Source: Hartmannibacter diazotrophicus (GTDB taxonomy: Bacteria > Pseudomonadota > Alphaproteobacteria > Rhizobiales > Pleomorphomonadaceae). Taken from it: a stretch of 64,000 nt of DNA. The position numbers were made by a program, and so were the translations under genes. The notes under the pieces were generated by a model, which was not told the DNA's origin, searched no databases, and was given only the letters and a program-made list of their open reading frames with translations. Shown here one piece after another: positions 23,376 to 46,821 of the stretch. Each line of letters opens with the position of its first letter. Positions within the stretch are counted from its first letter, which is position 1. The stretch covers positions 4,480,001 through 4,544,000 of the forward strand of contig NZ_LT960614.1 in NCBI RefSeq assembly GCF_900231165.1. The letters run 5' to 3'.

Positions 23376-23379
23376 TCGA

Positions 23380-28936: not shown

Positions 28937-28950
28937 TTTCCCATCCCCCC

Positions 28951-29418: not shown

Positions 29419-29981
29419 CGTTCCCTCCCTGTCTCCTGCATGACTGCATGCGATCGATCCGTGCGGCGACAGGCGGCGGGCAAGCCGTCCCGGCGCGCTG
29501 TCCGGCGCGTTGGATGCCGGGGCGACGAAACGGAACGGCAGAGGTGCCCCAGGGGGTCGAACGTGACCGAACACCATTGAGCGCAGGCGGAGGCTCAATT
29601 TGCTGCATGCGGATGGACGCGCTCCAGGCCGGACAAGTCCGTCCGTCCGTCCGGACCGGAGAAGAGGCCGACTGCCGGATGCGGAAGTCGCCAGCGGCTC
29701 GTCGGCGGAGATGGGCTCGCGGCTTGCTTGTCCCCTCCTGCGGCGAGCCTAGGAGGTTCATCCGGTTGTTTGGAAGAATTGAAACGCTATGCCACTCAGG
29801 CCGGATGAAATTGGCACGACGAGAAGGCAAAAGCCGCGGCGTCGCCCGAAATTGTGGCCCGGGGCCATTTCCGGCGAGGCGCAAGGCGCGGCGGGCCGCT
29901 CGCGGGGCAGGATTTCCCGAGCGTCGTTCGGGTGCCTGCGAAGGGTGTGAACGAGGGCCGCCTGCGGCCGGCGCGGGCCTG
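29419..29981. other. Intergenic region, no gene recognised
   Basis: This stretch of about 560 bases lies between the molybdenum hydroxylase small subunit and the terminator of frc copy 1. It presumably contains the hydroxylase promoter. Open frames on both strands are arginine- and proline-rich and unlike any family. No operator palindrome occurs here. Confidence 0.5.
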
Positions 29982-30019
29982 AAAATAAAAAAGGATGGCG
30001 CGCAAGAAGCGCGTCATCC
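29982..30019 (-). terminator. Intrinsic terminator after frc copy 1
   Basis: On the minus strand an eleven-base-pair stem with one mismatch (GGATGACGCGC/GCGCGCCATCC) is followed by TTTTTTATTTTC. Confidence 0.87.
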
Positions 30020-30033
30020 CGTGTTTGTCGTCT

Positions 30034-30069
30034 TGGCCAGGGGCGGCTCGACTGTGCCGCCCCTGGCCA
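30034..30069. repeat. Perfect 14-bp hairpin directly after frc copy 1
   Basis: TGGCCAGGGGCGGC and its exact complement are separated by eight bases. It lies 17 bases beyond the frc stop and before the T-tracted terminator. It has no T tract of its own and may stabilise the frc mRNA 3' end. Confidence 0.7.
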
Positions 30070-30085
30070 GATGGCTGATCCGTGA

Positions 30086-31336: not shown

Positions 31337-31501
31337 CTGGGTCTTTCTCCCTTTTCAATCGTTTCATTTTCCGTCCGGAGGCCCGCCGGGAAAGGACGTT
31401 TGGCCCGGAACATCACACTCCCACCCGACGAGGGTGGAAACTTGCTTGCAACCGGTTTTCCGCCTGGCGGCGAACCGGCGCGGCAGGGACGCGGAAACGC
31501 T

Positions 31502-31930
31502 TTACTCCGCGACCTTCGCCTGCAACTCCTTCAACTTGCGCCGCAGCTCTCGGTCCTGCTGCCAGCGCTCGGTCTCGTCGCGGACGACCGCGACGATGCC
31601 TGAAATCGTTCCATCGGCGTCGTGCATCAGCGCCACCGTGAACGCGATCGAAAGGCTCGATCCGTCCTTGTGCAGCGCCGGCACCTTGAGCAGCGACGTG
31701 CCGTAGCGGGTCACCCCGGTCTGCATCGTCTTCTCATAGCCGTTCCAGTGGGCCGGTCGCTGGCGCTCCGGAATGATCAGATCGAGCGACTGCCCGATGG
31801 CCTCCTCGGCCGAAAACCCGAAGATCCGCTCCGCCGCTGCGTTCCAGAACGTGATCCGGCCGTCAGGACCGGACACGATGACCGCGTCGGGGATCACCGC
31901 GACGAGCTGCTCGTGGTCGAACGACGCCAT
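31502..31930 (-). CDS. Small PAS-domain protein
   Basis: The 142-residue product is essentially one PAS domain (PDAVIVSGPDGRITFWN, IFGFSAEEAIG, then DGTISGIVAVVRDETERW) followed by a short coiled-coil tail (RELRRKLKELQAKVAE). It has no kinase, cyclase or DNA-binding output domain. It may sense redox, a small ligand or heme and act through a protein partner. I chose the ATG at 31930 over a longer frame because CGGAG precedes it. It is the gene immediately upstream of frc copy 1 and shares an operator palindrome 200 bases upstream, so an oxalate-linked role is likely but undefined. Confidence 0.87.
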   Translation of the reverse strand: MASFDHEQLVAVIPDAVIVSGPDGRITFWNAAAERIFGFSAEEAIGQSLDLIIPERQRPAHWNGYEKTMQTGVTRYGTSLLKVPALHKDGSSLSIAFTVALMHDADGTISGIVAVVRDETERWQQDRELRRKLKELQAKVAE

Positions 31931-32126
31931 GGTCAGGCTCCGTTCGCCATGCTGCTCGCCACCGGCATGCAAACTCGGCGGACGGAAGCCGTCTCGTGAC
32001 CCGAAGGCCCAAGTCTGCCAGATAGCGTCATTCTCTGTCCTCCCACACCGATCGCCTGCTCTCATGCACGACAGCCGCGTTGGCAAGCGGATCGGACCGG
32101 CCGCCGAACCATGGCACGCCAGCGGG

Positions 32127-32143
32127 TGGCATTTGGCATGCCA
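32127..32143. promoter_or_regulatory. Palindromic operator site 3, exact match
   Basis: TGGCATTTGGCATGCCA matches TGGYAT-N5-ATGCCA. It lies about 200 bases upstream of the PAS-frc unit and downstream of the OxlT-like gene on the same strand, so it most probably controls PAS-frc. Confidence 0.78.
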
Positions 32144-32311
32144 AACAACATGAATGTCAAGTCCCTGCGAAGTCAGCGGCGCATCACGATCAGTTTTCTT
32201 GGCAGGGACCGGAACGGTGAAAAGGGCGAAATTCCTATTTCAGCCAGAGCCTTGAATGAATCTGTAGAAAGCCGCATCCAGGCCCGACAGCAACGTTCAA
32301 GACGTCTGTAC

Positions 32312-32340
32312 GCCCTGCCGGATGCAGCACCCGGCAGGGC
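32312..32340. terminator. Hairpin after the OxlT-like transporter gene
   Basis: A ten-base-pair stem, GCCCTGCCGG with CCGGCAGGGC around nine bases, lies 10 bases beyond the stop on the minus strand. It lacks a clear T tract, so termination strength is uncertain. Confidence 0.55.
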
Positions 32341-32349
32341 TGGAGTGCC

Positions 32350-33645
32350 TTATTCGGCAGGCTGCATATCCACCGCGCGGGCGTTGGAAGCCAGCATGCC
32401 GCGGCGCCAGGGCTTCAGCACCCCGATCGCCAGGAAGGCGGTCAGGGCGTTGAGCACGACACCGATGATGAAGACCGGACCCCAGTTACCGGCACCGGCC
32501 AGAGCCGTCCCGAACGGCACCAGAAGCGCCGCCGTGCCCTTTGCCGTGTAGAGAAGACCGGCGTTGGTCGCGGCGAACTTGGAACCGAAGGTGTCCGTGC
32601 AGGTGGAGGGGAAGAGGCTGTAGATCTCGCCCCAGGCAAAGAACACCGTACCCGACAGGATCACGAACGCGATGTGGTTGTGGCCCCACAGATAGAGCAG
32701 GTAGATGCCGATGGCCTCGATCGCGAAGGCGATGAACATCGTGTTTTCGCGGCCGATCTTGTCGGAGATCCAGCCGAAGAAGGGCCGGGTCACGCCATTG
32801 AGCACGCGGTCGATGGTGGCGGCCAGCGTCAGGGCGGTCATGCCCCAGGCGATCGACATGTCGGCGACGCCGAGGTCCTTGGCCATCGGAGCAAGGTTGG
32901 CCGTGACGACCAGGCCGCCCGAGCCCACCATCACGAACATGGCGTACATGAGCCAGAACATCGGGTGCTTGACCACTTCCTGGGGCGTGTACTGGCGCTT
33001 GCTCTGGACGATGTTGCCCTTGGACTCAGCCTCGGGAACCTGTCCCTCCTTCGGCGCATAGAGGAAGAAGGAGAAGATGACGATGATGATGCCCTGCCCG
33101 AGGCCGAACCACAGGAAGGCATGCTGGTAGCCGAAGTTGGCGATCGTTGCCTGGATCGGCCAGACGGTGAGGGCCGAACCGGCACCGAAGCCCGCCGCCG
33201 TGATACCGGAGGCAAGGCCGCGCTTGTCCGGGAACCACTTCAGCGCGTTACCGACGCACGTGCCATAGACCGATCCCGCGCCTATGCCCGCCAGAACTTG
33301 GCCGAGGCAGAAGGTGAACATGTCGGATGCCATCGAGTTGATGACCCAGCCGGCACCGCACAGCACACCGCCGATGAGAATGACAATCTTCGGGCCGAAC
33401 TTGTCGACGAACCAGCCTTCGACAGGGACCAGCCATGTCTCGAACAGGACGAAGAGCGTGAAGGCCCATTGGATTTCCGACCGTGACCAGCCGAAGGATT
33501 GCTTGATTTCCGGAACGAAGAACGTCCAGCCGTATTGCAGATTGGCGATCATGACCATGCAGACGACGCCGATGGCCAACTGTCCCCAACGGTAGCCGTC
33601 GCTGACAGGTTGCGCTGATGCCTGGTGTTGAATCGATTGAGTCAT
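32350..33645 (-). CDS. oxlT: Oxalate/formate antiporter-like MFS transporter (OxlT type)
   Basis: The 431-residue protein is a twelve-helix MFS carrier of the OxlT subfamily, which exchanges oxalate for formate. It shows WTFFVPEIKQSFGWSRSEIQW near the N-terminus, GAGSVYGTCVGNALKWFPDKRG between helices 4 and 5, RVLNGVTRPFFGWISDKIGRE (holding a conserved helix-8-region arginine) and LLYTAKGTAALLVPF (holding the helix-11 lysine) — the two charges that OxlT uses to bind dicarboxylate. An exact operator palindrome sits 56 bases upstream of the ATG. The substrate assignment rests on family plus context. Confidence 0.87.
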   Translation of the reverse strand: MTQSIQHQASAQPVSDGYRWGQLAIGVVCMVMIANLQYGWTFFVPEIKQSFGWSRSEIQWAFTLFVLFETWLVPVEGWFVDKFGPKIVILIGGVLCGAGWVINSMASDMFTFCLGQVLAGIGAGSVYGTCVGNALKWFPDKRGLASGITAAGFGAGSALTVWPIQATIANFGYQHAFLWFGLGQGIIIVIFSFFLYAPKEGQVPEAESKGNIVQSKRQYTPQEVVKHPMFWLMYAMFVMVGSGGLVVTANLAPMAKDLGVADMSIAWGMTALTLAATIDRVLNGVTRPFFGWISDKIGRENTMFIAFAIEAIGIYLLYLWGHNHIAFVILSGTVFFAWGEIYSLFPSTCTDTFGSKFAATNAGLLYTAKGTAALLVPFGTALAGAGNWGPVFIIGVVLNALTAFLAIGVLKPWRRGMLASNARAVDMQPAE

Positions 33646-33700
33646 TTCCTAACCCTTCACGCTTGTTCGGACTTGGATGCCGCGCTGAAGGGCCAGACAC

Positions 33701-33717
33701 TGGTATCTATTATGCCA
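33701..33717. promoter_or_regulatory. Palindromic operator site 4, exact match
   Basis: TGGTATCTATTATGCCA lies 56 bases upstream of the OxlT-like ATG (minus strand), where a bound repressor or activator would affect that promoter. Confidence 0.83.
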
Positions 33718-34347
33718 AACGGCAACTGCCTTTTTTTGAAGATCTGCAATTTAAACAAAGTCACTGTTTTTAAGTAGCTTTTCATGGTTGCAATCGATCC
33801 GTTGAGATACAACCAGACGAGATTTTGTTACGTGACAGAAACAAACTTTTTGGACAGATCCAAGGAAAACAAGTCAGTAAGACTGATTATATCCTTCACG
33901 GAAAAATGTTCTCCGGAATGAGGCCTCTAAATTTTTCAAGCCGGCTTGAATGAAATAAGCCAAACTTTATAGATTTCTAAGACTTTTCAAATTGTTAAAC
34001 GATTTACGACAGTCGGGCACCTTCATCGTGACGCCAAATGTGTCGTGGGGGAAAAGATCCTTTGCCGGCGACGGAGTGAATCCTTCTGACCGTCTCTTCA
34101 GGCCCCTCGGCGTCGCCCGATGAGGCAGCCATCGCGCCATCGCAATGCAGCAACACCGAAACATCTTGATTCAATGGAGGTGAGAGCCACCCATCCGCCC
34201 TGCTCCGGGCGGCCGGGATCATCTGCACGGCCTGCGCCAAAGGGCTTGCAGCCGCCTTGCCGCGACCCCGCGCAGGCCTATCTGCGAACACGATGACGCG
34301 ATTCCACAGGTCAAGAGAGGCAAAGCGCCACATGATCGATTGACATC
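33718..34347. other. AT-rich divergent region between oxlT and gntR3, no gene
   Basis: About 630 bases, of which 33720-34010 are markedly AT-rich compared with the rest of the window. Both flanks carry an exact operator palindrome. Two short minus-strand frames (65 and 118 codons) have no family features. It may hold long untranslated leaders or a small RNA, but I cannot identify one. Confidence 0.5.
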
Positions 34348-34364
34348 TGGTATTTGGCATGCCA
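34348..34364. promoter_or_regulatory. Palindromic operator site 5, exact match
   Basis: TGGTATTTGGCATGCCA is 47 bases upstream of the GntR paralogue 3 ATG, and an extra half-site AATGCCA follows at about 34370. The position implies autoregulation and control of the downstream oxc gene. Confidence 0.83.
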
Positions 34365-34411
34365 ACGGTAATGCCAACAAAGAAATGCCATCTGGGGAGA
34401 GATCAGGAACG

Positions 34412-35128
34412 ATGCGGCCGGGAGCGCAAGTCAGACGGCCGACTGGGTCCGGACGCCGTGCAAAGGCCCCGGACAACGGACAAACCAACAAGCGTCGCAT
34501 TTACCAGGCCCTGAAGCAGGCCATCGTCGAGATGGATGTTTATGGCACGGATAAAACGATTGAGTTGGGTGAGAGGCAGCTGTCCAAGGAATACGGCGTA
34601 TCGCGGACGCCCGTTCGTGAGGCCATCGCGATGCTGGAATACGAAGGCTTCGTGCGCACCGTACCAAGGCGCGGCGTGGTCGTCGTCCGTAAGTCGCCGG
34701 ACCAGATCATCGAGATTATCGAGGCCTGGGCCGCCCTTGAGGCAATTGCCGCTCGGTTGGTGGCCTTGAACGCCAGGCCCGAGGAAGTCTCGGCTTTGCG
34801 TGACCTGTTCACCGACAGCAATGTGGAGGATTTTGGCCCCGAGGCGCTTGGCGAATACTCGCGGGCCAATCTGGATTTTCACCAGGCGATCATCCGTCTC
34901 AGCGGATCGCAGACGCTGATCGACCTGACCGAGGACCTGCTCTTGCATGTGCGCGGCATCCGCCAGATTGCAATCGGCAGGGCTGAACGCCGGCGGCGCT
35001 CGATCGACGACCATTTCGGCATCATCGACGCGCTGGAAAAGAGGGATGCGGATCGGGCCGAGGCCCTGTCCCGGCAGCATACGCTGGGACTGACCCAATT
35101 CGTTGAGGCGATTGGCCAGCAGGCCTAG
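34412..35128 (+). CDS. GntR family transcriptional regulator, FCD type (paralogue 3)
   Basis: The 238-residue product has a winged helix (LGERQLSKEYGVSRTPVREA, wing PRRGVVVVRK) and an FCD domain (LDFHQAIIRLSG, LLLHVRGIRQIAIG, SRQHTLGL). It is the closest relative of the regulator at 22461-23195. The frame is open to 34340, but that would place the operator palindrome inside the coding region, so I chose the ATG at 34412 behind AGGA. It precedes oxc by 92 bases on the same strand and is the best candidate for the local oxalate regulator. Confidence 0.9.
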   Translation: MRPGAQVRRPTGSGRRAKAPDNGQTNKRRIYQALKQAIVEMDVYGTDKTIELGERQLSKEYGVSRTPVREAIAMLEYEGFVRTVPRRGVVVVRKSPDQIIEIIEAWAALEAIAARLVALNARPEEVSALRDLFTDSNVEDFGPEALGEYSRANLDFHQAIIRLSGSQTLIDLTEDLLLHVRGIRQIAIGRAERRRRSIDDHFGIIDALEKRDADRAEALSRQHTLGLTQFVEAIGQQA

Positions 35129-35220
35129 GTCGCTTCGAATGGCACGAGACGGATCGCAGAAGATCAACCAAGACAGTCCTATAGCAAGACAGTCCTAAAG
35201 AACGTCCGGGAGAAAACGGA

Positions 35221-36960
35221 ATGTCCGCAGTAGCACAAACCATTGATGCCGCCACTGAAGAAGAGCGCGATCTCACCGATGGCTTCCATCTTGTGATCGA
35301 CGCGCTGAAGCTCAACGGCATCGAGACCATTTACGGCGTTCCGGGGATTCCGATCACCGACCTCGGCCGCATGTGCCAGGAAGAAGGCATCCGCGTCGTC
35401 TCGTTCCGCCACGAGCAGAACGCCGGCAACGCCGCCGCGATCGCCGGCTTCCTGACCAAGAAGCCCGGGATTTGCCTCACGGTCTCTGCGCCCGGCTTCC
35501 TCAACGGTCTGACGGCTCTCGCCAACGCCACGACCAACTGCTTCCCCATGATCCTCATCTCCGGCTCCTCCGAGCGTGAGATCGTCGACCTGCAGCAGGG
35601 CGACTACGAGGAAATGGACCAGCTCGCGATCGCCAAGCCGCTCTGCAAGGCCGCCTTCCGCGTGCTTCATGCCGAAGACATCGGCATCGGTGTCGCCCGC
35701 GCCATCCGCGCGGCCTGCTCGGGCCGTCCGGGCGGTGTCTACCTCGACCTGCCGGCCAAGCTCTTCGGCCAGGTTCTCGACGCGGAAAAGGGCGCCCAGT
35801 CGCTGGTCAAGGTGATCGACCCCGCTCCCGAGCAGCTCCCGGCTCCGGCCGCCGTCAAGCGTGCGATGGACGTGCTGAAGGGCGCCAAGAAGCCGCTCAT
35901 CATCCTCGGCAAGGGCGCGGCTTACGCCCAGGCTGACGACGACATCCGTGCGTTCGTCGAAAAGTCGGGCATCCCCTTCCTGCAGATGTCGATGGCCAAG
36001 GGCCTTCTGCCGGACAACCACCCGCAGTCCGCCGGTGCCGCCCGTTCGCTGGCGCTGCTGGAATCCGACGTGGTCGTCCTCGTCGGCGCCCGCCTCAACT
36101 GGCTGCTCAGCCACGGCAAGGGCAAGCAGTGGGGCCCCGCCGGCTCCAAGAAGTTCATCCAGATCGACATCGAGCCGAAGGAGATGGACTCCAACGTCGA
36201 GATCGCCGCTCCGCTCGTTGGTGACATCGGCTCCTGCGTCAAGGCGCTTCTGTCCGGCATCGACGGCAAGTGGGAAGCTCCCTCGGCCGAGTGGACCGGC
36301 GCCATCAGCGCCAAGAAGGACGCCAACATCGCCAAGATGGCGTCGCGGCTGATGAAGAACTCCTCGCCGATGGACTTCCATTCGGCCCTCGGCGCGCTGA
36401 AGACCGTCATTGCCGAGCGTCCGGACGCCATCCTCGTCAACGAGGGCGCCAACACGCTCGACCTCGCCCGCGGCGTCATCGACATGTACCAGCCGCGCAA
36501 GCGTCTCGACGTCGGCACCTGGGGCGTGATGGGCATCGGCATGGGCTTTGCCATCGCCGCCGCCGTCGAAACCGGCAAGCCGGTCCTCGCGGTCGAGGGC
36601 GACTCGGCCTTCGGCTTCTCCGGCATGGAGGTGGAGACGATCTGCCGCTACAACCTGCCGGTCTGCATCGTCATCTTCAACAACAACGGCATCTACCGCG
36701 GCACCGACAAGGATCCGACGGGCCGCGATCCGGGCACGACCGTGTTCGTCGAGAATGCCCGTTACGACAAGATGATGGAAGCCTTCGGCGGCGTCGGTGT
36801 GAACGTCACCACCCCGGACGAGCTGAAGCGCGCCGTTGACGAAGCCATGGACAGCGGCAAGCCGACCCTCATCAACGCGGTGATCGATCCGGCCGCCGGC
36901 AGCGAGAGCGGCAACATCGGCAGCCTCAACCCGCAGAGCGTGGTCAAGAAGAAGAAGTAA
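35221..36960 (+). CDS. oxc: Oxalyl-CoA decarboxylase
   Basis: Oxc uses thiamin diphosphate to decarboxylate oxalyl-CoA to formyl-CoA and CO2. The 579-residue protein has the full three-domain ThDP-enzyme layout: the PYR domain with catalytic glutamate 65 in RHEQNAG, a central ADP-binding domain, and the PP domain with the metal/ThDP motif GDSAFGFSG starting at residue 460 and ending NNNGIYRG. The first segment, [15 protein letters not shown], is typical of Oxc. The basic C-terminus VVKKKK is unusual but short. It follows GntR paralogue 3 and precedes frc copy 2. Confidence 0.96.
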
Positions 36961-37011
36961 TCGGCAACGACCGGTTACTGACGCTGATCGCCCGGCGATC
37001 CTCCCAAGTCC

Positions 37012-37039
37012 GCTCCCGGCCGATATCTCGGCCGGGAGC
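37012..37039. terminator. Perfect 12-bp hairpin between oxc and frc copy 2
   Basis: GCTCCCGGCCGA and TCGGCCGGGAGC flank a TATC loop, 51 bases after the oxc stop. There is no T tract, so it may dampen rather than end transcription into frc. Confidence 0.6.
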
Positions 37040-37082
37040 CGGCCCGGGGAACGGGTGACATAGCGACGCGGATGGCCAGTGC

Positions 37083-37094
37083 GTGGTATGCCAC
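37083..37094. promoter_or_regulatory. Compressed variant of the operator palindrome upstream of frc copy 2
   Basis: GTGGTATGCCAC joins TGGTAT and ATGCCA half-sites without the five-base spacer, 53 bases upstream of the frc ATG. It is palindromic but not equivalent to the standard 17-bp site, so regulator binding is doubtful. Confidence 0.35.
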
Positions 37095-37146
37095 GTACAC
37101 AGGCTTTGGTATAAAAAGAAAAGTTTATATCCGCAGGAGAGGATTC

Positions 37147-38424
37147 ATGGTCAAGGCGCTCGAAGGCGTTCGTATTCTCGATTTCACACACGTTCAGTCC
37201 GGGCCCACATGCACCCAGCTTCTGGCTTGGTTTGGCGCCGACGTGATCAAGGTGGAACGGCCGGGCGTTGGTGACATCACCCGCGGTCAGCTGGTGGACG
37301 TCCCCGAGGCGGATAGCCTCTATTTCACGATGCTGAACCACAACAAGCGCTCGATCACGATCGACACCAAGAATCCCGAGGGCAAGCGGGTTCTCGAGGA
37401 GCTGATCAAGATCTGCGACGTGATGGTGGAGAATTTCGCTCCCGGCGCGCTCGACCGCATGGGCTTTTCCTGGGAGCGCATCCAGGAGATCAATCCGAGG
37501 ATCATTCTCGCCTCGATCAAGGGTTTCGGCCCCGGTCCCTACGAGGACTGCAAGGTCTACGAGAACGTTGCCCAGTGCACCGGCGGTTCGGCCTCCACGA
37601 CCGGCTTCCGCGACGGCCTGCCGCTGGTGACCGGCTCCCAGATCGGCGACAGCGGCACGGGCCTGCATCTTGCGCTCGGCATCGTCACGGCGCTCTTCCA
37701 GCGCACCCACACCGGCCGCGGCCAGAAGGTCAGCGCTGCCATGCAGGACGCCGTGCTCAACCTTTGCCGCGTCAAGCTGCGCGACCAGCAGCGTCTCGCC
37801 CACGGTCCGCTGAGGGAATACAGCCAGTTCGGTGAAGGCATCGAATTCGGCGACGCCGTGCCGCGCGCAGGCAACGACAGCGGCGGCGGCCAGCCGGGCC
37901 GTATCCTGAAGTGCAAGGGCTGGGAGACCGACCCGAACGCCTACATCTACTTCATCACCCAGGCCCCGGTCTGGGAGAAGATCTGCGACGTCATCGGCGA
38001 GCCGGACTGGAAGACCCACCCGGACTATGCCAAGCCGGCGGCTCGCCTGCCCCGTCTCAACGCGATCTTTGCGCGCATCGAACAGTGGACGATGACCATG
38101 GACAAGTTCGAGGCGATGAACATCCTCAACAAATACGACATTCCCTGCGGCCCGATCCTTTCGATGAAGGAACTCGCCGAGGACGAGTCGCTGCGCGCGA
38201 CCGGAACCGTCGTCGAGGTCGATCATCCGGTCCGCGGTTCGTATCTGACGGTCGGCAACCCGATCAAACTGTCCGACAGCCCGACGGAGGTGACCCGTTC
38301 GCCGCTGCTCGGCGAGCACACCGAAGAAATCCTGCGCGAAGTCCTGAAATTCTCCGACGACAAGATCGAGGATATTCTGGCGACCGGCGCGCTCGGCGTA
38401 ACGTCAAAGGTTGCCGCCGAATAA
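37147..38424 (+). CDS. frc: Formyl-CoA:oxalate CoA-transferase (copy 2)
   Basis: This 425-residue class III CoA-transferase has the catalytic aspartate at residue 168 (QIGDSGTG), the glycine lid in [12 protein letters not shown] and the [15 protein letters not shown] signature. It is readily aligned with copy 1 at 30086-31336 but differs at many positions, so the pair is an old duplication or separate acquisitions rather than a recent copy. The start at 37147 follows AGGAGAGG; residues added by the frame to 37072 are not family-like. It lies directly after oxc, the classic oxc-frc pairing, and has its own terminator. Confidence 0.93.
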
Positions 38425-38447
38425 TCTCCCTCCCTGGCGGGACACTC

Positions 38448-38486
38448 AGGCGGTGGTATTCCTTTGGATGCCGCCGCCTTTTTTCT
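38448..38486 (+). terminator. Intrinsic terminator after frc copy 2
   Basis: AGGCGGTGG pairs imperfectly with CCGCCGCCT and is followed by six T, 24 bases after the frc stop. It separates the oxc-frc unit from the CoA-ligase genes. Confidence 0.83.
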
Positions 38487-38589
38487 TTCTCGCAAGGACA
38501 GAACACTGCAGCCGGCCGTGAAAGTCGGCTCCAATATCTGGAGAGGTCAACACGCCGCACCGGCAATACATTGACGCGCCGGTTTGTCG

Positions 38590-38606
38590 TGGCATACTGC
38601 ATTCCA
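38590..38606. promoter_or_regulatory. Palindromic operator site 6 (one mismatch)
   Basis: TGGCATACTGCATTCCA matches the palindrome except for one base in the right half. It lies 106 bases upstream of the CoA-ligase beta-subunit ATG. Confidence 0.6.
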
Positions 38607-38712
38607 GTCATCACGATTTTCCGAATTGCCCCTTTTCAATCGGGTGTGAAGGCTGCACTCTTTTCGCAAGATCATCCCCTGCGAAGGGATGGCGGCAGGT
38701 GGGAGGACGCTC

Positions 38713-39876
38713 ATGAAACTGCATGAATTCCAGGCCAAGCGGTTGCTGACCCGCTTCGGCGTCTCCTCGCCGCCCGGCCGCGTCGCGCTGACGCCTGACG
38801 AGGCGAGAAACATCGCCGTCGAACTCGACGTCAAGGCCTATGCGGTCAAGGCCCAGATCCTCGCCGGTGGCCGCGGCCGCGCCGGTGGCGTCCGTCTTGT
38901 CCAGACGCCAACCGAAGTGGAAACCGCCGCCGCCGCATTGATCGGCCAGCGCCTCGTCACCGAGCAGAACGGCCCCAAGGGACACCTCGTCAAGCGTGTG
39001 TTGGTCGAGGCCGCGATGCCGATCCGGCGCACGCTGCACGTCTCGCTCTTCGTCGATCGCTCGGCCGGCGAGATCGTCGTGCTGGCCTCGCTCGGCGGCG
39101 GCGACGACATCGAGGAGCGCTTCCGGCGCGGCGACCTCAAGCTGGAGCGCCTGTCGCTCGGCGCAGGCCGGACCTCCGCCCTCGACGGTGCGAAGGATCT
39201 CGCCGGACGCCTCGGCCTTGACGCCTCACTTGCCGATCGTTTCGCCGATCTCGTCGAACGCCTGCGCCAGGCCTTCATCGACGTCGACGCCAGCCTCATC
39301 GAGATCAACCCGCTGGTCGTCACTGACGAGGGCGCCCTGATGGCCGCCGACGCCAAGATCGTCGTCGACGACAACGCCCTCTTCCGCCAGCCGGAGATGG
39401 CCTCCTACCAGGACGAGGAGGACCTCGACGAGACCGAGGTCAATGCCCAGCGCCGCCAGCTCAACTACATGGAACTGGACGGCAACATCGGCCTTGCCTG
39501 TAACGGCGCCGGGCTCGGCCTTGCCACCCTCGACATGGTCAAGGCGGCGGGCGGCAATCCGGCCAACTTCATGGACATCCGCACGACGGCGAAAAGCCTC
39601 GACGTCGCCTATGGTTTCGGCCTGCTTTTGAAGAACCCGCAGGTCAAGTCGATCCTCATCAACGTCCACGGCGGCGGCATGCAGCCTTGCGACACCATCG
39701 CCGAAGGGCTCGGCATCGCCATGCGCCGCACGGGGCGCTCCTGCCCCACCATCGTACGCCTCGCCGGCAAGAATGCGGACTTTGCCCGCAACCGCTTCGC
39801 CAACTTCGGCTGCAAGGTCATCGAATGCCCGGACATGTGGTCGGCCGCCCAGCGCGCCGTCGCCGCCGCGAAATAA
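38713..39876 (+). CDS. ADP-forming acyl-CoA ligase, beta subunit (SucC/MtkA-like, substrate uncertain)
   Basis: The 387-residue protein has the ATP-grasp plus CoA-ligase layout of succinyl-CoA synthetase beta and malate thiokinase MtkA. It opens MKLHEFQAKRLLTRFGV, and shows KAQILAGGRGRAGGV and DASLIEINPLVVT, then the NGAGLGLATLDM loop. The next block reads GGNPANFMDIRTTAKS where family members have PANFLDVGGGA. The usual NIFGGI.RCD becomes NVHGGGMQPCD. Both changes fall in the region that contacts the acid substrate, so the substrate may be neither succinate nor malate. Start at 38713 behind GGAGGACG. It is 12 bases upstream of the alpha subunit. Malate is the default guess in a serine-cycle setting; oxalate or glyoxylate-derived acids are alternatives. 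Confidence 0.8.
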   Translation: MKLHEFQAKRLLTRFGVSSPPGRVALTPDEARNIAVELDVKAYAVKAQILAGGRGRAGGVRLVQTPTEVETAAAALIGQRLVTEQNGPKGHLVKRVLVEAAMPIRRTLHVSLFVDRSAGEIVVLASLGGGDDIEERFRRGDLKLERLSLGAGRTSALDGAKDLAGRLGLDASLADRFADLVERLRQAFIDVDASLIEINPLVVTDEGALMAADAKIVVDDNALFRQPEMASYQDEEDLDETEVNAQRRQLNYMELDGNIGLACNGAGLGLATLDMVKAAGGNPANFMDIRTTAKSLDVAYGFGLLLKNPQVKSILINVHGGGMQPCDTIAEGLGIAMRRTGRSCPTIVRLAGKNADFARNRFANFGCKVIECPDMWSAAQRAVAAAK

Positions 39877-39888
39877 GGAGAGCCAGTC

Positions 39889-40773
39889 ATGGCCATTCTC
39901 GTTGACGAAAATACGCGGGTCCTCTGCCAGGGCATGACCGGCTGGGCCGGCAGCCACCACACCGCGGAAATGATCGCCTACGGCACCAAGGTTGTCGCCG
40001 GCGTCACCCCTGGCAAGGGCGGCCGCTTCCATCTTGGCCTGCCCGTCTTCGACACCGTCGCCGAAGCGATGACGGCGACCCAGGCCAACGCCAGCATGCT
40101 CTTCGTGCCGCCGGACAACGCCGCCGCCGCGATGATCGAGGCGATCGAGGCGGAAATGCCCCTCATCGTCGCCATCACCGAGCGCGTTCCTGTGCTCGAC
40201 ATGCTGCGGGTGCGCGATGCGCTGAAGGGCTCCAAGACGATCCTCGTCGGCCCGAACTCGCAGGGCGTCCTCGCGCCCGGCGTCTGCAAGATCGGTGTCA
40301 TGGCGACCGGACCGGAGCGCCGCGGCCATGTCGGCATCATTTCCCGTTCCGCCTCGCTCACCAGCGAAGTCATCGCCCAGGTCAGCGCGGCCGGCCTCGG
40401 CCAGTCCACCACCGTCGGCGTCGGCGGCGATGCGGTGCACGGCCTCGGCATGCGCGAGAGCCTCGAGATGTTCCTGAAGGACCCGGAGACGCACGGCATC
40501 GTGCTCATCGGCGAGATCGGCGGCAACGAGGAGGAAGAAGTCGCCGACTTCGTCAAGCAGGTTCGCCCATCGATTCCGATCGTCGCGCTCGTGGTCGGCC
40601 GCAACGCCCCGCCGGAACGGCGCATGGGCCATGCCGGCGCGCTCAACCAGGCCGGACGCGGCGATGCGGAGAGCAAGATCAAGGCACTCTCGGGCGCTGG
40701 CGTGATCATCGCCCCGAGCCCACATCTCGTCGGTGAGACCATCCGCCAGTCGCTCGCCTCGAAGGCGGCGTGA
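39889..40773 (+). CDS. ADP-forming acyl-CoA ligase, alpha subunit (SucD/MtkB-like)
   Basis: The 294-residue protein has the CoA-binding Rossmann domain (CQGMTGWAGSHHT near residue 13) and the ligase domain with the phospho-accepting histidine at residue 248 (RRMGHAGAL) and GEIGGNEEEE near 208. Deviations from SucD are SRSASLTSE for SRSGTLTYE and GGDAVHGLGMRESLEMF for GGDPV.GT.F.D. The catalytic chemistry is therefore kept while surrounding residues differ. It forms an operon with the beta subunit and ends at a bidirectional terminator. Confidence 0.82.
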   Translation: MAILVDENTRVLCQGMTGWAGSHHTAEMIAYGTKVVAGVTPGKGGRFHLGLPVFDTVAEAMTATQANASMLFVPPDNAAAAMIEAIEAEMPLIVAITERVPVLDMLRVRDALKGSKTILVGPNSQGVLAPGVCKIGVMATGPERRGHVGIISRSASLTSEVIAQVSAAGLGQSTTVGVGGDAVHGLGMRESLEMFLKDPETHGIVLIGEIGGNEEEEVADFVKQVRPSIPIVALVVGRNAPPERRMGHAGALNQAGRGDAESKIKALSGAGVIIAPSPHLVGETIRQSLASKAA

Positions 40774-40804
40774 GCCAGTCGGGCTTTCGGCAACGCATGA
40801 ATCG

Positions 40805-40834
40805 AAAAGGGCCGCCCCAAAGGCGGCCCTTTTC
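40805..40834. terminator. Bidirectional intrinsic terminator
   Basis: GGGCCGCC and GGCGGCCC form a stem around CCAAA, with AAAA before and TTTTCTTG after, so it works for the CoA-ligase operon (plus) and the FAH-family gene (minus). Confidence 0.88.
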
Positions 40835-40863
40835 TTGTCTCGATGCAAACAGACGGCAGTCCG

Positions 40864-41637
40864 TCAGCACAGCACCCGGTTGGAGAGCGTCCCGATCCCC
40901 TCGATCGAGACCTCGACGATATTGACCGGCTCCTTCATCGAGCCGACGCCGACCGAGGTGCCGCAGGCGATCAGATCGCCCGGCATCAGCGTCATGTCCT
41001 GCGAAATCCGGCTGACGAGGTCCGCCGCCGGGAAGATCATGTCCGAGACCGGATAGTTCTGCCGCTCGGCGCCGTTGAGAACGGTGCGGATCGACAGCGT
41101 CGACGGATCGAGGCCGGTGGCGATCACCGGTCCGAAGGGGCAGAAGCCGTCGAAGCTCTTGGCTCGCGCCCACTGCGGGAAATTCGGGTCCTTATTGAGG
41201 AGATCGCCGGCCGTGATGTCGTTGACGCAGGTGTAGCCGAAGATGCCGTCTTCCGCTTCGGTAACGCTGGCATTGGCCAGCCGCTTGCCGATCACGATCC
41301 CAAGCTCGCCCTCATAGACGATGCGGCCGTCATAGGCCTTCGGGCGCGGCACATCGGCCTGCGGCGAGGTGATGCTGGAGACGGCCTTCAGGAGATAGAG
41401 CGGGTCTTCGGGCGCCGAAACGCCGAGCTTGGCGCCAAGCGCGCGAAAATTGTTCCAAAGCGCGATCACCTTGGTCGGCTGGCAGGGCGGCAGCAGCTTG
41501 AGGCCATCGGCCGAAAGCGTGCGCCCCGTGTCCGTCGCACCGTCGAACATGTCGCCCTCATGCACATGGACGACATTGTCCTCGACGGTGCCGAAGGCCG
41601 CCGTACCGTTGTCGTCGAAGCGCACCCATCGTGTCAT
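40864..41637 (-). CDS. Fumarylacetoacetate hydrolase (FAH) family protein
   Basis: The 257-residue protein has the FAH fold. Metal-binding acidic residues are seen in VYEGELGIVIGK and the following YTCVNDITAGD. The signature FPQWARAKSFDGFCPFGPVI and the closing GDLIACGTSVGVG are also present. The family includes oxaloacetate decarboxylase/tautomerase (FAHD1) and acylpyruvate or 2-hydroxyhepta-dienedioate isomerases. In this neighbourhood an oxaloacetate-handling role is attractive because PEP carboxylase makes oxaloacetate, but the sequence does not prove it. It lies 104 bases downstream of pntB on the same strand. Confidence 0.88.
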   Translation of the reverse strand: MTRWVRFDDNGTAAFGTVEDNVVHVHEGDMFDGATDTGRTLSADGLKLLPPCQPTKVIALWNNFRALGAKLGVSAPEDPLYLLKAVSSITSPQADVPRPKAYDGRIVYEGELGIVIGKRLANASVTEAEDGIFGYTCVNDITAGDLLNKDPNFPQWARAKSFDGFCPFGPVIATGLDPSTLSIRTVLNGAERQNYPVSDMIFPAADLVSRISQDMTLMPGDLIACGTSVGVGSMKEPVNIVEVSIEGIGTLSNRVLC

Positions 41638-41741: not shown

Positions 41742-43139
41742 TCACTCGAGGTTCTTGATGATGTTCTCGACCATTTTCTTGGCGTCGGCGAAGAGCATCA
41801 TGGTGTTGTCGCGGAAGAAGAGTTCGTTCTCGACGCCGGCATAGCCCGATCCCATGCCGCGCTTGATGAACAGCACGGTCTTGGCCTTGTCGACGTCGAG
41901 GATCGGCATGCCGTAGATGGCCGAGGTCGGGTCGGTCTTGGCCGCCGGGTTGGTGACGTCGTTGGCGCCGATGACGAAGGCAACGTCGGCCTGGGCGAAC
42001 TCGGAGTTGATGTCTTCCAGCTCGAACACCTCGTCATAGGGCACGTTCGCTTCTGCCAGCAGCACGTTCATGTGCCCGGGCATGCGGCCGGCGACCGGGT
42101 GGATGGCGTATTTGACCTCGACGCCCTCCTCCTTGAGCTTGTCGGCCATCTCGCGCAGCGCATGCTGGGCCTGGGCGACCGCCATGCCGTAGCCCGGCAC
42201 GATGATCACCTTGCCGGCGTTCTTCATGATGAAGGCCGCATCCTCCGCCGAGCCCTGCTTGACCGGCCGGGTCTCCACCGCGCCGCCCGCCGGGCCCGCC
42301 GTCTCGCCGCCGAAGCCGCCGAGGATGACCGAGATGAACGACCGGTTCATGCCCTTGCACATGATGTAGGAGAGGATCGCGCCCGACGAGCCGACGAGGG
42401 CGCCGGTGATGATCAGCGCCGTGTTGCCGAGCGTGAAGCCGATGCCGGCCGCCGCCCAGCCCGAGTAGCTGTTCAGCATCGAGACGACGACGGGCATGTC
42501 CGCGCCGCCGATCGGGATGATGATCAGGATGCCGAGCGCCAGCGCCGCCAGCGTGATCAGCCAGAAGACGGCGTGGCTCTCGGTGTTGACCAGCACGACG
42601 ATCAGGATGACGAGGGCGGCGGCGAGCGCGATGTTGATCACGTGCCGGCCGGGCAGCATGATCGGCTTGCCGGACATCCGCCCGTCGAGCTTCAGGAAGG
42701 CGATGACCGAGCCGGTGAAGGTGATCGCGCCGATGGCGACACCGAGGCTCATCTCGACCAGCGCCTGGCCGTGGATCGAGCCGACCTCGCCGATGCCGAG
42801 CGCCGAGGGGGCGTAGAGCGCGCCGGCCGCCACCATCACCGCGGCAAGGCCGACGAGCGAGTGGAAGGCCGCGACCAGCTGCGGCATCGCCGTCATGGCG
42901 ATCTTGCGGGCGATGACCGCGCCGGCGCCGCCGCCGATGGCGAGCGCGATCACGATCAGCGCGATCGAGCCGACGGAGAGATGGATGCCGGCCAGCGTCG
43001 TGAGGATCGCGATCCCCATGCCGACCATGCCGTAGAGGTTGCCCTTGCGCGAGGTCACGGGGCTGGAAAGCCCCCTCAGCGCCATGATGAACAGAACAGC
43101 AGAGACGAGATAAAGGCTCGCCATCACATTCGCGGACAT
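41742..43139 (-). CDS. pntB: NAD(P) transhydrogenase beta subunit
   Basis: PntB is the membrane and NADP(H)-binding subunit of the proton-translocating transhydrogenase that makes NADPH from NADH at the expense of the proton gradient. The 465-residue product has about nine membrane helices and a soluble C-terminal domain with VPGYGMAVAQAQHALREM, HPVAGRMPGHMNVLLAEA and VIGANDVTNPAAK, the NADP-binding signatures. Its start is four bases after the stop of the preceding subunit. Confidence 0.97.
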   Translation of the reverse strand: MSANVMASLYLVSAVLFIMALRGLSSPVTSRKGNLYGMVGMGIAILTTLAGIHLSVGSIALIVIALAIGGGAGAVIARKIAMTAMPQLVAAFHSLVGLAAVMVAAGALYAPSALGIGEVGSIHGQALVEMSLGVAIGAITFTGSVIAFLKLDGRMSGKPIMLPGRHVINIALAAALVILIVVLVNTESHAVFWLITLAALALGILIIIPIGGADMPVVVSMLNSYSGWAAAGIGFTLGNTALIITGALVGSSGAILSYIMCKGMNRSFISVILGGFGGETAGPAGGAVETRPVKQGSAEDAAFIMKNAGKVIIVPGYGMAVAQAQHALREMADKLKEEGVEVKYAIHPVAGRMPGHMNVLLAEANVPYDEVFELEDINSEFAQADVAFVIGANDVTNPAAKTDPTSAIYGMPILDVDKAKTVLFIKRGMGSGYAGVENELFFRDNTMMLFADAKKMVENIIKNLE

Positions 43140-43143
43140 CGCC

Positions 43144-43632
43144 TTATCCCTTCTTCTTGTACATCGCCAGCATCCGGCTGGTGACCAGGAAGCCGCCGAA
43201 GATGTTCACCGCCGCAAGGATCACGGCGACGAAGCCGAAGCCGCGCGCCATGCCCGCCGACGCCGACGTCGACAGATCGACGCCCACCGCCAGCAGCGCG
43301 CCGACGATGATCACCGACGAGATCGCGTTGGTGACGCTCATCAGCGGCGTGTGGAGGGCCGGCGTCACCGACCAGACCACGTAGTAGCCGACGAAGATCG
43401 CGAGCACGAAGATCGACAGGCGGAAGACGAAGGGATCGATCGCGCCCCCGCTCATGGAATGGACGGCCGCGCCGATGCCGTCGTCGAGGCCGTTATGCGC
43501 GGCGCCCGCAAGCTGGTCCACGATGGAGCCGGCGGCTTTGGCCGCCTCGGCGGCCTGGTCGGCGGCAAGCCGGGCCGCCTCCGCCGCCGCCCGGGCGCGC
43601 TCCAGCGCCTCGTCGGGTGAAAGTGTTGCCAT
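43144..43632 (-). CDS. pntAB: NAD(P) transhydrogenase alpha subunit, part 2 (membrane)
   Basis: The 162-residue protein is the separate membrane part of the split alpha subunit found in many alphaproteobacteria. After an alanine-rich helical lead, helices include FVFRLSIFVLAIFVGYYVVW and GFVAVILAAVNIFGGF, and the protein ends VTSRMLAMYKKKG, typical of this component. It lies between part 1 and pntB. Confidence 0.95.
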   Translation of the reverse strand: MATLSPDEALERARAAAEAARLAADQAAEAAKAAGSIVDQLAGAAHNGLDDGIGAAVHSMSGGAIDPFVFRLSIFVLAIFVGYYVVWSVTPALHTPLMSVTNAISSVIIVGALLAVGVDLSTSASAGMARGFGFVAVILAAVNIFGGFLVTSRMLAMYKKKG

Positions 43633-43851
43633 GGTCGTTGTCCCCTTGGATCAGTCGCGGGGTCCGTGCCCCGCGCGAGGTTCGGTTGGCCTCATGGGAT
43701 AGGAAAATCGGAAAGCACGCGCCGTGCGGCAGCCGAGAATGGCAAGACTGCCGGAAGCCCCCCTCCCCGAGGAAGATGGCCGCCCGGCAAGACCCGCCGA
43801 GGGGGCCGGGCGCCGAAGCCGGCGCCCCCGCCTCCTTGCCTAGAAGGCCCC

Positions 43852-44994
43852 TTACGCGGCCTCTTTCGGCGCAAACGCCGGATGTACCACCGCGCCGTCG
43901 CGCGTCAGCACCGTCGCCTTCACCAGTTCGTCCTCGTAGTCGACCTTGAGCGCCTTGGCCTCCTTGTCGACCAGCGTCTCCACGAAGGCGTAGAGGTTCT
44001 TGGCATAGAGCTGCGAGGCCGTCGCCGCGATGCGGCCCGCCACGTTCCTGTGGCCGACGATCTTCACCGCCCCGATCTCGACGATCTCGCCGGCGACCGC
44101 GCCTTCCACGTTGCCGCCGCGCTCCACCGCCAGATCCACCAGCACCGAGCCCGGCCGCATGGAGGCGAGCATCTCGGCCGTCACCAGCCGCGGCGCCTGC
44201 CGGCCCGGGATCAGCGCCGTGGTGATCACGACGTCCTGCTTCTTGATGTGTTCGGCAACGAGGGCGGCCTGCTTGGCCTGATACTCGGCCGACATCGGCT
44301 TGGCGTAGCCCGCCGCCGTCTCGGCCTGCTTGAACTCCTCGTCCTCGACCGCGATGAACTTGCCGCCGAGCGATTCCACCTGCTCCTTGGAGGCCGGCCG
44401 CACGTCGGTGGCCGACACCACCGCGCCGAGGCGCTTGGCGGTCGCGATCGCCTGCAGGCCGGCAACGCCCGCGCCCATCACGAAGACGCGCGCCGCCGGC
44501 ACCGTGCCCGCCGCCGTCATCATCATCGGGAAGGCCCGGTCGTAGACCTCGGCCGCGTCGATCACCGCCTGGTAGCCGGCAAGGTTGGCCTGGGACGACA
44601 GAACGTCCATCACCTGCGCGCGAGTGATGCGCGGCATGAACTCCATCGCCACCGCGACGAGCCCGGCCTCCGCCATCGCCTTGACCGCGTCCTCGTGGCC
44701 ATAGGGGTCCATGGTGGCGATCACCAGCGCGCCCTTCGGGATCAGGCCAAGCTCTTCCGCCTCGGGACGGCGCACCTTCAGCACCACGTCGGCGCCGGCA
44801 TAGGTGTCCGCCGCCGAGCCGGCGATCTTCGCCCCCGCCGCCTCATACTCGCCGTCCGGTATCCGCGACAGCGCACCGGCGCCCGTCTCCACAACCACCT
44901 CGGCACCAAGGCCGACATAACGCTTCACAACATCCGGAACCACCGCAACGCGGCCCTCGCCAGATGCAACCTCTTTAGGGACCACGAGCTTCAT
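43852..44994 (-). CDS. pntAA: NAD(P) transhydrogenase alpha subunit, part 1 (NAD-binding)
   Basis: The 380-residue soluble subunit binds NAD(H). It starts MKLVVPKEVASGEGRVA, has the alanine dehydrogenase/PNT fold with FVMGAGVAGLQAIATAKRLGA (NAD-binding GAGVAGL) and AEYQAKQAALVAEHIKKQD, and ends with the LVKATVLTRDGAVVH tail. I chose the ATG at 44994 over a longer frame. It is first in the pntAA-pntAB-pntB operon. Beside the oxalate genes it could supply NADPH for oxalyl-CoA reduction; this is inference. Confidence 0.96.
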   Translation of the reverse strand: MKLVVPKEVASGEGRVAVVPDVVKRYVGLGAEVVVETGAGALSRIPDGEYEAAGAKIAGSAADTYAGADVVLKVRRPEAEELGLIPKGALVIATMDPYGHEDAVKAMAEAGLVAVAMEFMPRITRAQVMDVLSSQANLAGYQAVIDAAEVYDRAFPMMMTAAGTVPAARVFVMGAGVAGLQAIATAKRLGAVVSATDVRPASKEQVESLGGKFIAVEDEEFKQAETAAGYAKPMSAEYQAKQAALVAEHIKKQDVVITTALIPGRQAPRLVTAEMLASMRPGSVLVDLAVERGGNVEGAVAGEIVEIGAVKIVGHRNVAGRIAATASQLYAKNLYAFVETLVDKEAKALKVDYEDELVKATVLTRDGAVVHPAFAPKEAA

Positions 44995-45187
44995 CGTTCG
45001 TCCTACCTTCCCGTTTCCTGAACCCTCGTCTTCGCCGCCGTCCCACGATTGGGCGGAAGCAGGCAGCAAAGAACCCTGCCGGGCGGAGACCGCCTGGCAT
45101 TCATTTCAATCGATACCTTGAAACCCCACAGCCGCACGCCGCGGCAGCGCCATGAAGAGGCGCCGCGCGGCGAGTGCGCGCCGAAGC

Positions 45188-46216
45188 TCAGGCGATCGCC
45201 TTGACCTTCGGCTCTTCGACCACCTCTGCCTCGGGGAAGCATGGATAGATCCCCTGCACCCGCGCCATCTGCTGTGCCAAAGCCAGCACGCAGTCGATGA
45301 AGGGCGTTTGCATGCCGGCAAGCCGGCCCATTTCCTGGACCGCCGTCAGCAGCGCGTCCAGCTCGATGACCTTGCCGCTTTCCACGTCCTGCAGCATCGA
45401 GGTGCGGTGCGCACCGACCTTGGCCGCTCCGTTGATGCGGCGTTCGACGTCGACGCGGAACGAGGCGCCGAAATGCTCGCCGATGGCCTGGGCCTCGAGC
45501 ATCATCTTGCGGGCAAGCTCCCGGGTACCGGCATCCGTCGCGACGACGTCGAGCGTTGCACGGGTCAGCGCCGAGATCGGGTTGAAGCAGAGGTTGCCCC
45601 ACAGCTTGATCCAGATGTCGTCGCGGATGTCGTCATAGTATTTCGCCTTGAGGCCGCAGGCATCGAGCGCATCGCCGAGCCGCTTGACGCGGGCGCTCTC
45701 GGTCCGGTTCGGCTCGCCGAGGCCGAACTGGTTGCCGTAGATGTGCTTGATAACGCCCGGCTCGATGATCTCGGTCGCCGGATAGACCGTGCAGCCGATG
45801 ATCCGCTGCGGTCCGATCACGTTCCATTGGCGGTTGCCCGGATCGACGCTCTGAAGACGCAGATCCTTGAACTTCTCGTCGAGGCCGTAGAAGTACCACC
45901 ACGGCACGCCGTTCTGCGCCGTCACCACGGCCGTATCAGGCCCGAGCAGCGGAACCATCTGCTCGGCCGATTCCCAGGCCTGATGCGCCTTGAGGCCGCT
46001 GATCACATAATCCTGCGGACCGAGTTCGCCCGGATCGCGCGTCGCGGGCATCGCCTCGACGATTTCCTCGCCGTCGATGATCAGTTTCAGACCGTTGGAC
46101 TTGATCGCTTCAAGATGCGGACCGCGCGCCACGATGGAGACGTCGACGCCGCTCCTTTTCAGCATGACCGCCATGTATCCCCCGATAGCGCCCGCGCCGA
46201 AAATGCATACCTTCAT
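45188..46216 (-). CDS. panE2: PanE/ApbA-family reductase, probable oxalyl-CoA reductase
   Basis: The 342-residue protein is a ketopantoate-reductase-fold NADPH enzyme: N-terminal nucleotide motif FGAGAIGG (residues 6-13), RG at the 2'-phosphate position, QNGVPWWYF, and the catalytic lysine block IKLWGNLCFNP with a conserved asparagine. It is longer than biosynthetic PanE and has a QNGVPWW signature of the 2-dehydropantoate 2-reductase-like side branch. From memory, in Methylobacterium extorquens AM1 a protein named PanE2 was shown to reduce oxalyl-CoA to glyoxylate during oxalate assimilation. Context here (frc, oxc, transhydrogenase, operator sites at 46444 and 46633) fits that role better than pantothenate synthesis. 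Activity is not proved by sequence alone. Confidence 0.75.
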   Translation of the reverse strand: MKVCIFGAGAIGGYMAVMLKRSGVDVSIVARGPHLEAIKSNGLKLIIDGEEIVEAMPATRDPGELGPQDYVISGLKAHQAWESAEQMVPLLGPDTAVVTAQNGVPWWYFYGLDEKFKDLRLQSVDPGNRQWNVIGPQRIIGCTVYPATEIIEPGVIKHIYGNQFGLGEPNRTESARVKRLGDALDACGLKAKYYDDIRDDIWIKLWGNLCFNPISALTRATLDVVATDAGTRELARKMMLEAQAIGEHFGASFRVDVERRINGAAKVGAHRTSMLQDVESGKVIELDALLTAVQEMGRLAGMQTPFIDCVLALAQQMARVQGIYPCFPEAEVVEEPKVKAIA

Positions 46217-46443
46217 CACGAAATTCCTTCCTGGTCATGCCTGGAGCATTGTCCGTCGCCGGTGTCGCGGTCCGAACGAAGACCCATGCTCTTCTGGTTC
46301 GCTCCGGTGTGCTGCCCGCCCGGTCCAACGACCACGCGGGGGCAGCACCTCCCCCCGGAAAACAAGCCCTGTTCCTCAACTCGCCAGGTCGCCAGACGAT
46401 GCGCATGACCAAGCCCACAGGCGCAAAACCCATCGGCATCAGC

Positions 46444-46460: not shown

Positions 46461-46632
46461 CGTCAACGCGCCAAAAGTCGCGCTCGCATCGAGAGAGATT
46501 GACGACCGTGAAACCGGCCTTTGACAAGAAATCCGTCCTCATCGGTCCTTGCGAAAGATCCTTTGTCTTCCGTAAACCGATAACGGCAATATGACTTGCC
46601 TCCCCAATCGACTTAGTCGAGTTTCTTTTCTG

Positions 46633-46649
46633 TGGTATGCAAGATGCCA
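46633..46649. promoter_or_regulatory. Palindromic operator site 8, exact match
   Basis: TGGTATGCAAGATGCCA matches the consensus. The only gene oriented to use it is the PanE-family gene on the minus strand, about 420 bases away, so the transcript would have a long leader or the site acts from a distance. Confidence 0.72.
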
Positions 46650-46821
46650 GAAGATACCCGACTGTCAATCCTGCCGGACGGCGCACAACGGCCGAATCCG
46701 GTCTGGGAGCGCATTTGTCGCAGGCAAAAGCCGCCGGAAATCCGCGCGTTTCGGGCATTCGGCGCGGCCACGGCCATGGCAGGCCGCTGCGTTGCATATT
46801 TTCTGAAAAGGCTTGAAATTT

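Follow-up and report, generated by a model that had tools for sequence, protein, structure and literature searches.

The usual account of oxalate breakdown in bacteria is a self-sustaining cycle of two enzymes: formyl-CoA:oxalate CoA-transferase (Frc), which converts formyl-coenzyme A (formyl-CoA) and oxalate into oxalyl-CoA and formate, and oxalyl-CoA decarboxylase (Oxc), which converts oxalyl-CoA into formyl-CoA and CO2. Together, the two conserve one CoA thioester. Such a cycle leaves open the origin of the first thioester, and its replacement when oxalyl-CoA goes to biosynthesis. Even pure oxalate breakdown needs an initial CoA thioester as a spark, and net assimilation requires a supply powered by ATP, because the reductase PanE2 drains one CoA thioester per turn, which Frc and Oxc cannot replace. 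PanE of Methylobacterium extorquens is reported to interconvert glyoxylate and oxalyl-CoA reversibly (PMC9485241). Escherichia coli Nissle carrying oxlT, oxdC and frc is described as using no oxalate until the yeast oxalyl-CoA synthetase was added (PMC8899768; PMC11045627), and the acetyl-CoA:oxalate CoA-transferase YfdE (UctC) has been given a proposed role in priming the Oxc/Frc cycle (PMC3720670). The DNA analyzed here is a 64,000-nucleotide stretch of Hartmannibacter diazotrophicus (contig NZ_LT960614.1, positions 4,480,001 to 4,544,000), below referred to as the window. Beside its oxalate genes lies a divergent gene pair resembling sucC and sucD, which probably encodes an ADP-forming oxalate-CoA ligase (oxalyl-CoA synthetase) on the scaffold of succinyl-CoA synthetase (SCS). 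The pair would represent a new subfamily, set apart by its acid specificity, within a known kind of enzyme.

The pair consists of a beta subunit gene (SucC-like; 38713-39876, + strand, 387 aa) and an alpha subunit gene (SucD-like; 39889-40773, + strand, 294 aa), with stop codons included in the coordinates. Both genes are intact and follow the order beta-alpha, with 12 bases between the beta stop and the alpha start. With SucCD (EC 6.2.1.5) the products share the fold, the subunit architecture, the catalytic histidine of alpha and the ATP-grasp residues, and the beta subunit is 39% identical to that of E. coli. The Pfam domains over their cut-offs are PF08442 and PF00549 in beta and PF02629 and PF00549 in alpha, i.e., the architecture of the SCS superfamily; in both subunits the matches are to ATP-grasp/SCS-type families only, and none is of the AMP-forming AAE3/Pcs60 type. 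A first-pass annotation of the window had stated that the catalytic chemistry is kept, which holds: GHAGAL of alpha begins at residue 247, making His248 the catalytic histidine, and residues E197, N199 and D213 of the beta ATP-grasp are invariant in an alignment of 16.

The same annotation described changed acid-binding motifs, and these were confirmed and found to be fixed in the family. The window pair does not match the acid-site motifs of SucCD (DVGGGA, NIFGGI-RCD, TEGIP, GPNCPG and SRSGTLTYE). The beta subunit carries PANFMDIRTTAKS from residue 283 and NVHGGGMQPCD from residue 317 (DIRTTA, HGGGM signature), where SucC of E. coli has PANFLDVGGGATK and NIFGGIVRCD, respectively, the second motif being one residue longer in the window protein. 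In alpha, SRSASLTSE starts at residue 152, and two further changes, TEGIP to TERVP and GPNCPG to GPNSQG, go beyond the earlier description. The AlphaFold model of beta (mean predicted local distance difference test score, pLDDT, 86.6), used for fold and secondary structure only, has SCS beta chains as its closest PDB folds. In the C-terminal domain of this model, DIRTT, GGGMQP and the segment following VRL lie where strands 283-289, 313-319 and 346-351 end. In a related ligase, active sites were superposed on loops including P128-C130, G163-I165 and V354-D356; residues L131, F146, A164, G355 and S385 are placed near the acyl group, and L131 and S385 are called variable and possibly tied to substrate range (PMC11494057). 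Judging by the motifs, these loops may correspond to GPNSQG, SRSAS and DIRTT of the window pair.

Homologues of the pair, called at E<=1e-95, were found in 41 of the 397 genomes that were sampled within the order, representing 18 of 141 genera. This cut was set after the first comparison results and leaves out one genome (G025, E 3.6e-90; genomes are given G and loci L numbers) which carries the signature and an oxalate island (L144). Arginine at beta position 290 and the longer GGG loop are present in 41/41 homologues, and therefore the acid-site changes are more than chance. In a tree of 102 beta subunits, computed without five far sequences (L024, L095, L096, L098 and L101), the 46 signature rows form one clade (100/100) apart from SucC, and seven MtkA-type rows of the malate-CoA ligase MtkAB form a separate clade (100/100). 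A second tree, for which the signature columns were removed, far canonical rows were thinned and two signature relatives not belonging to the order were included, again joined all 48 rows in one clade (Shimodaira-Hasegawa-like approximate likelihood ratio test, SH-aLRT, 100). Tight placement within MtkAB or SucCD was looked for in the phylogeny and did not appear. Among the alpha subunits, TER[VI]P, G[PA]N[ST][QHL]G and SRSA occur in 44/44 aligned family rows, a tally that excludes G349 and G392, whose alphas lie apart from beta. The other alphas (n=46) mostly have TEGIP, GPNCPG and SRSG, with TER once only, in L100, which belongs to the family, has its beta truncated at a contig end and was dropped before the beta counts.

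A genome of the same family (G003) has a beta of 78% identity and an identical gene order from the GntR regulator to the fumarylacetoacetate-hydrolase (FAH) gene. A phylum-wide sample of 398 genomes gave two matches only, the present genome and another member of its order. Beyond the order, the signature is found in G816 with an adjoining panE2, so that the arrangement beta-alpha-panE2 recurs (L164); three other matches that narrowly pass the E-value cut show the canonical motifs, and their fetched stretches contain no oxalate gene. The relatives of the pair in Phyllobacterium zundukense are annotated sucC and sucD; the family is thus hidden by annotation.

The family is strictly tied to Frc, which is present over its curated cut-off in 42/42 ligase genomes (the 41 and G025), the total of Frc genomes being 115/397. 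The ligase was found in 0/282 genomes without an Frc-model match at E<=1e-165, a count resting on search tallies and the Frc check of the ligase genomes, with most of the non-matching genomes not individually listed; in the genome searches, only a subset of the first-look candidates of each genome was scored, mostly 4. The hypergeometric probability of the association is 2e-25 when genomes are counted and 7e-10 when genera are counted, related genomes not being independent.

The gene neighborhoods agree with this distribution. Across the 46 signature loci (45 distinct, L056 and L129 being the same contig), frc, oxc, oxlT or panE2 occurs in the fetched stretch of 41; of the rest, four have formate dehydrogenase only, with or without Tct genes, and one is a 4.6-kb contig with TctC. 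The gene panE2 lies at most 400 bases downstream in 15/46 loci, a formate dehydrogenase beta gene at most 265 bases downstream in 12/46, and frc at most 430 bases upstream in 7/46, and a glyoxylate carboligase gene is found about 1 kb downstream in four (L054, L055, L112 and L114). Around canonical betas, oxalate-type genes were seen at 2/54 loci, both being a second pair within a signature island. This control comes mostly from other phyla (41/54 with at least 10 kb of DNA; seven further canonical betas had no flanking DNA in the comparison) and carries less weight than the phyletic comparison. Of the 44 ligase genomes, 36 have a PanE2 relative with 60% identity or more, one of these relatives being partial. 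In two genomes (G349 and G392; L136, L139, L149 and L150) the alpha gene lies beyond frc on the same contig, and beta is followed by formate dehydrogenase genes.

An ADP-forming oxalate-CoA ligase is the simplest fit to the panE2 operons, the tie to Frc and a diacid-binding scaffold with extra arginines. In the proposed reaction, ATP would phosphorylate His248 of alpha, and the phosphoryl group would pass to one carboxylate of oxalate, held by a reshaped pocket that may include the new beta Arg290, the new arginine of the alpha TERVP loop and the longer GGG loop. CoA would then displace the phosphate, yielding oxalyl-CoA, ADP and Pi. PanE2 would reduce oxalyl-CoA to glyoxylate, releasing free CoA, with NADPH, perhaps from the neighboring transhydrogenase; alternatively, Oxc would decarboxylate it to formyl-CoA, starting and topping up the Frc/Oxc cycle. 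The first-pass annotation had suggested either oxalate activation, priming the Frc cycle without formyl-CoA, or formation of malyl-CoA with altered specificity. The former, as a predicted activity, gains from the phylogeny, the co-occurrence, the operon partners and the operator-like site (see below), and feeding PanE2 adds a wider role to it; the latter was set aside on clade, model score and the presence of a separate MtkAB-type pair. We lean towards the broader view that bacterial oxalate assimilation has its missing ATP-driven entry in a previously unrecognized alphaproteobacterial family of ADP-forming oxalyl-CoA synthetases, masked by the sucCD label, which would make oxalyl-CoA de novo for PanE2 in a pocket built for the smallest dicarboxylate.

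The main rival, an unlikely one in our judgment, is an ADP-forming formate-CoA ligase whose formyl-CoA would prime or refill the Frc cycle. Formyl-CoA would refill the cycle equally well, and the presence of Frc in 42/42 genomes checked suits this enzyme too, as do the 12 loci in which formate dehydrogenase follows the pair. Yet in the 15 loci with panE2 close by there is no formate gene in that place, and PanE2 acts on oxalyl-CoA; the downstream glyoxylate carboligase of four loci also speaks against formate, and the scaffold binds diacids, the fixed changes adding positive charge that would suit a second carboxylate. It is quite improbable that the pair is a malate-CoA ligase like MtkAB (EC 6.2.1.9) or a ligase for glyoxylate, glycolate, tartronate or malonate. 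The window pair and MtkAB are both two-subunit ADP-forming ligases, the window beta is about 42% identical to the MtkA-type beta of the same genome, and PanE2 and glyoxylate carboligase work on glyoxylate; the signature can also occur among other genes (L165, see below). The window beta lies outside the MtkA clade, however, where the loops read DIGGGA/FAGINRCD, and reaches 356.9 bits with the malate-CoA ligase model NF010647 (cut-off 604). The strict tie to Frc and the different gene context also argue against malate, as does the content of the genome. This 5.45-Mb genome has three such subunit pairs: the window pair, one SucCD-type pair (L020) whose beta groups beside the SucC rows, and one MtkAB-type pair (L019) that passes NF010647 (708.3 bits) and adjoins citE/malyl-CoA-lyase-like and glyoxylate-reductase-like genes.

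An ordinary SucCD paralogue, whose succinyl-CoA a transferase would use to make oxalyl-CoA, is very improbable, even if the curated models accept the sequences. Beta scores 399.9 bits with NF001913 (cut-off 370) and 375.6 with TIGR01016 (cut-off 375.55), and alpha passes NF004230 (351.4 bits, cut-off 336) and just misses TIGR01019 (349.8, cut-off 353.2); the sucC and sucD names in P. zundukense point the same way, as may the canonical SucCD-like pairs present in two islands (L053 and L121). We set plain SucCD aside on motifs, clade and context: the acid-site motifs that almost every canonical row retains have changed across the whole family, the pair is tied to Frc and oxalate operons, and the genome has both a pair near SucC and an MtkA-type pair. 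Moreover, a canonical pair alongside in two islands suggests a division of labor. These canonical pairs lie at L053:1-1850 and L121:11206-13335; in a further oxalate island (L172:1-1062) a canonical sucC is next to the divergent pair, with only sucC within the stretch.

Several observations weigh against oxalate as the substrate or limit its reach. The curated SucCD models do not separate the new clade, the mapping of the motifs to the acid pocket is conjectural, based on motifs and not on a ligand-bound structure, and the 12 loci with an adjacent formate dehydrogenase subunit fit formate as well. At the cut used, 74 of the 115 Frc genomes are without the pair; it is therefore not universally needed, and other routes must exist, e.g., transferases or the nucleoside-diphosphate (NDP)-forming acyl-CoA synthetase found beside some islands, another possible acid activator. 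PanE2 relatives with 60% identity or more are missing from 8/44 ligase genomes, and so feeding PanE2 cannot be the only role of the pair. Finally, for one signature beta from outside the order (L165, G909), the 19 kb fetched contain a carboxyltransferase-like gene and a DASS symporter and lack any oxalate gene, and this deep branch may use another acid.

The fused NDP-forming acyl-CoA synthetase, which resembles acetate/hydroxybutyrate-CoA ligases, recurs by frc or oxlT (L053:1958-4252, L109, L110, L111, L115, L140, L169 and L171) and is possibly a second acid activator. In 10/42 ligase genomes no Oxc exceeded the curated cut-off, and a different thiamine diphosphate (ThDP) enzyme adjoins frc (L053:6673-8424, L109:11754-13640, L110, L111, L136, L139 and L169-L171; eight genomes by tblastn, G122 and G233 by coordinates). 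It is about 27% identical to Oxc, has PRK05858 and 2-hydroxyacyl-CoA lyase as its closest models, and is a candidate alternative oxalyl-CoA decarboxylase or formyl-CoA carboligase. In an eleventh genome (G354), the Oxc gene is itself split by contig ends.

The proposed ligase can also be set beside known sources of oxalyl-CoA. AAE3, the oxalyl-CoA synthetase of plants (EC 6.2.1.8, with Pcs60 in yeast), would have the same product and belongs to a different superfamily, as an acyl-activating enzyme of the AMP-forming kind, which sets it apart from the window pair. An ADP-forming ligase would cost less ATP than an AMP-forming enzyme. YfdE is a class III CoA-transferase spending acetyl-CoA, whereas the window pair is a proposed ATP-driven ligase. 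In M. extorquens AM1, oxalate is assimilated through oxalyl-CoA reductase, with the same pathway logic based on PanE2; the abstract of a 2012 study of this strain by Schneider et al. is said to mention an oxalyl-CoA synthetase mutant. Should that synthetase belong to the family described here, the function would already be partly known and its novelty would fall. Our literature searches, with subscription papers largely outside their scope, found no bacterial SucCD-like or ADP-forming oxalate ligase named in the titles or abstract openings listed. If the assignment is correct, a two-gene bacterial ADP-forming oxalate ligase fills the gap for which engineers borrowed the yeast enzyme, reported to supply the missing step in E. 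coli (PMC8899768). It would also explain a misannotated family, and its step would start and feed the use of oxalate by many bacteria of soil or associated with plants.

Within the window, the pair stands in an island of oxalate genes. Upstream on the + strand are a GntR/FCD regulator gene (34415-35128; PF00392 and PF07729), oxc (35221-36960; TIGR03254, 1020.9 bits, cut-off 739.4) and frc (37144-38424; TIGR03253, 736.8 bits, cut-off 504.2). The - strand carries a gene for an OxlT-type oxalate/formate antiporter (32350-33645; TIGR04259, 599 bits, cut-off 335) and a second Frc paralogue (30086-31336; TIGR03253, 732.9 bits). The two Frc paralogues are 64% identical, and both are well above the Frc cut-off. 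Downstream, all on the - strand, are a gene for an FAH-family protein (40864-41637; PF01557), which recurs as a neighbor in L021, L053 and L109-L111, transhydrogenase genes (41742-45069) and a panE2-like gene (45188-46219; NF005089, 473.2 bits), named 2-dehydropantoate 2-reductase and proposed to encode the oxalyl-CoA reductase. The transhydrogenase beta gene (41742-43139) scores 563.5 bits with NF006974, under the cut-off of 689, and the two following genes (43144-43632 and 43852-45069, both alpha) were named by synteny with annotated P. zundukense genes; the transhydrogenase is a possible NADPH supply for PanE2.

The first-pass annotation had given the pair its own terminator-bounded unit with an operator site, which corresponds here to a set of predicted elements. 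Consensus scans placed a terminator-like hairpin of 14 pairs between frc and the pair (38448-38479, + strand) and a sigma-70-like promoter match, TTGACG-16-CATACT (9 of 12; 38571-38598, + strand); in the scanned region 36900-40900, four terminator-like sites were found vs. 2.9 in shuffles, and one promoter-like match vs. 0.4. Over the second hexamer of this match, 105 bases before the beta ATG, lies the palindromic operator-like site TGGCATACTGCATTCCAG (38590-38607, + strand). After alpha, an inverted repeat rich in GC and flanked by runs of A and T (40805-40833) was read directly and is not listed by the scan.

The operator pattern TGGCATN5ATNCCAG has nine matches in the window vs. 0.11 in shuffles and seven exact matches in the genome, five of them within 18.4 kb (window 20212-38607). 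The counts are partly circular, as the pattern was derived from the window sites at 33700, 34347 and 38590 and the site before beta in L021; independent of the derivation are the sites at 20212 and 23225 (exact), 32126 and 46632 (one mismatch), L021:8249, and those of L053 and L172. With a 6-base spacer, the pattern gave two matches vs. 3.55 expected by chance, and the spacer was re-read as 5. Operator-like sites precede oxlT (33700-33717), the GntR gene (34347-34364) and beta, and others lie near two further GntR paralogues; one-mismatch sites precede a PAS gene and, at a distance of 0.4 kb, panE2 (46632-46650). The pattern also occurs upstream of beta in L021 and in Phyllobacterium L053. The island has three GntR/FCD-type paralogues (20525-21241, 22464-23195 and 34415-35128), each near a copy of the operator-like site, and cross-regulation among them is possible. 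Near the oxalate genes, regions 26663-29598 and 23383-26376 encode xanthine/aldehyde-oxidoreductase-like molybdenum cofactor (MoCo) subunits and a weakly scoring phosphoenolpyruvate (PEP)-carboxylase-like protein.

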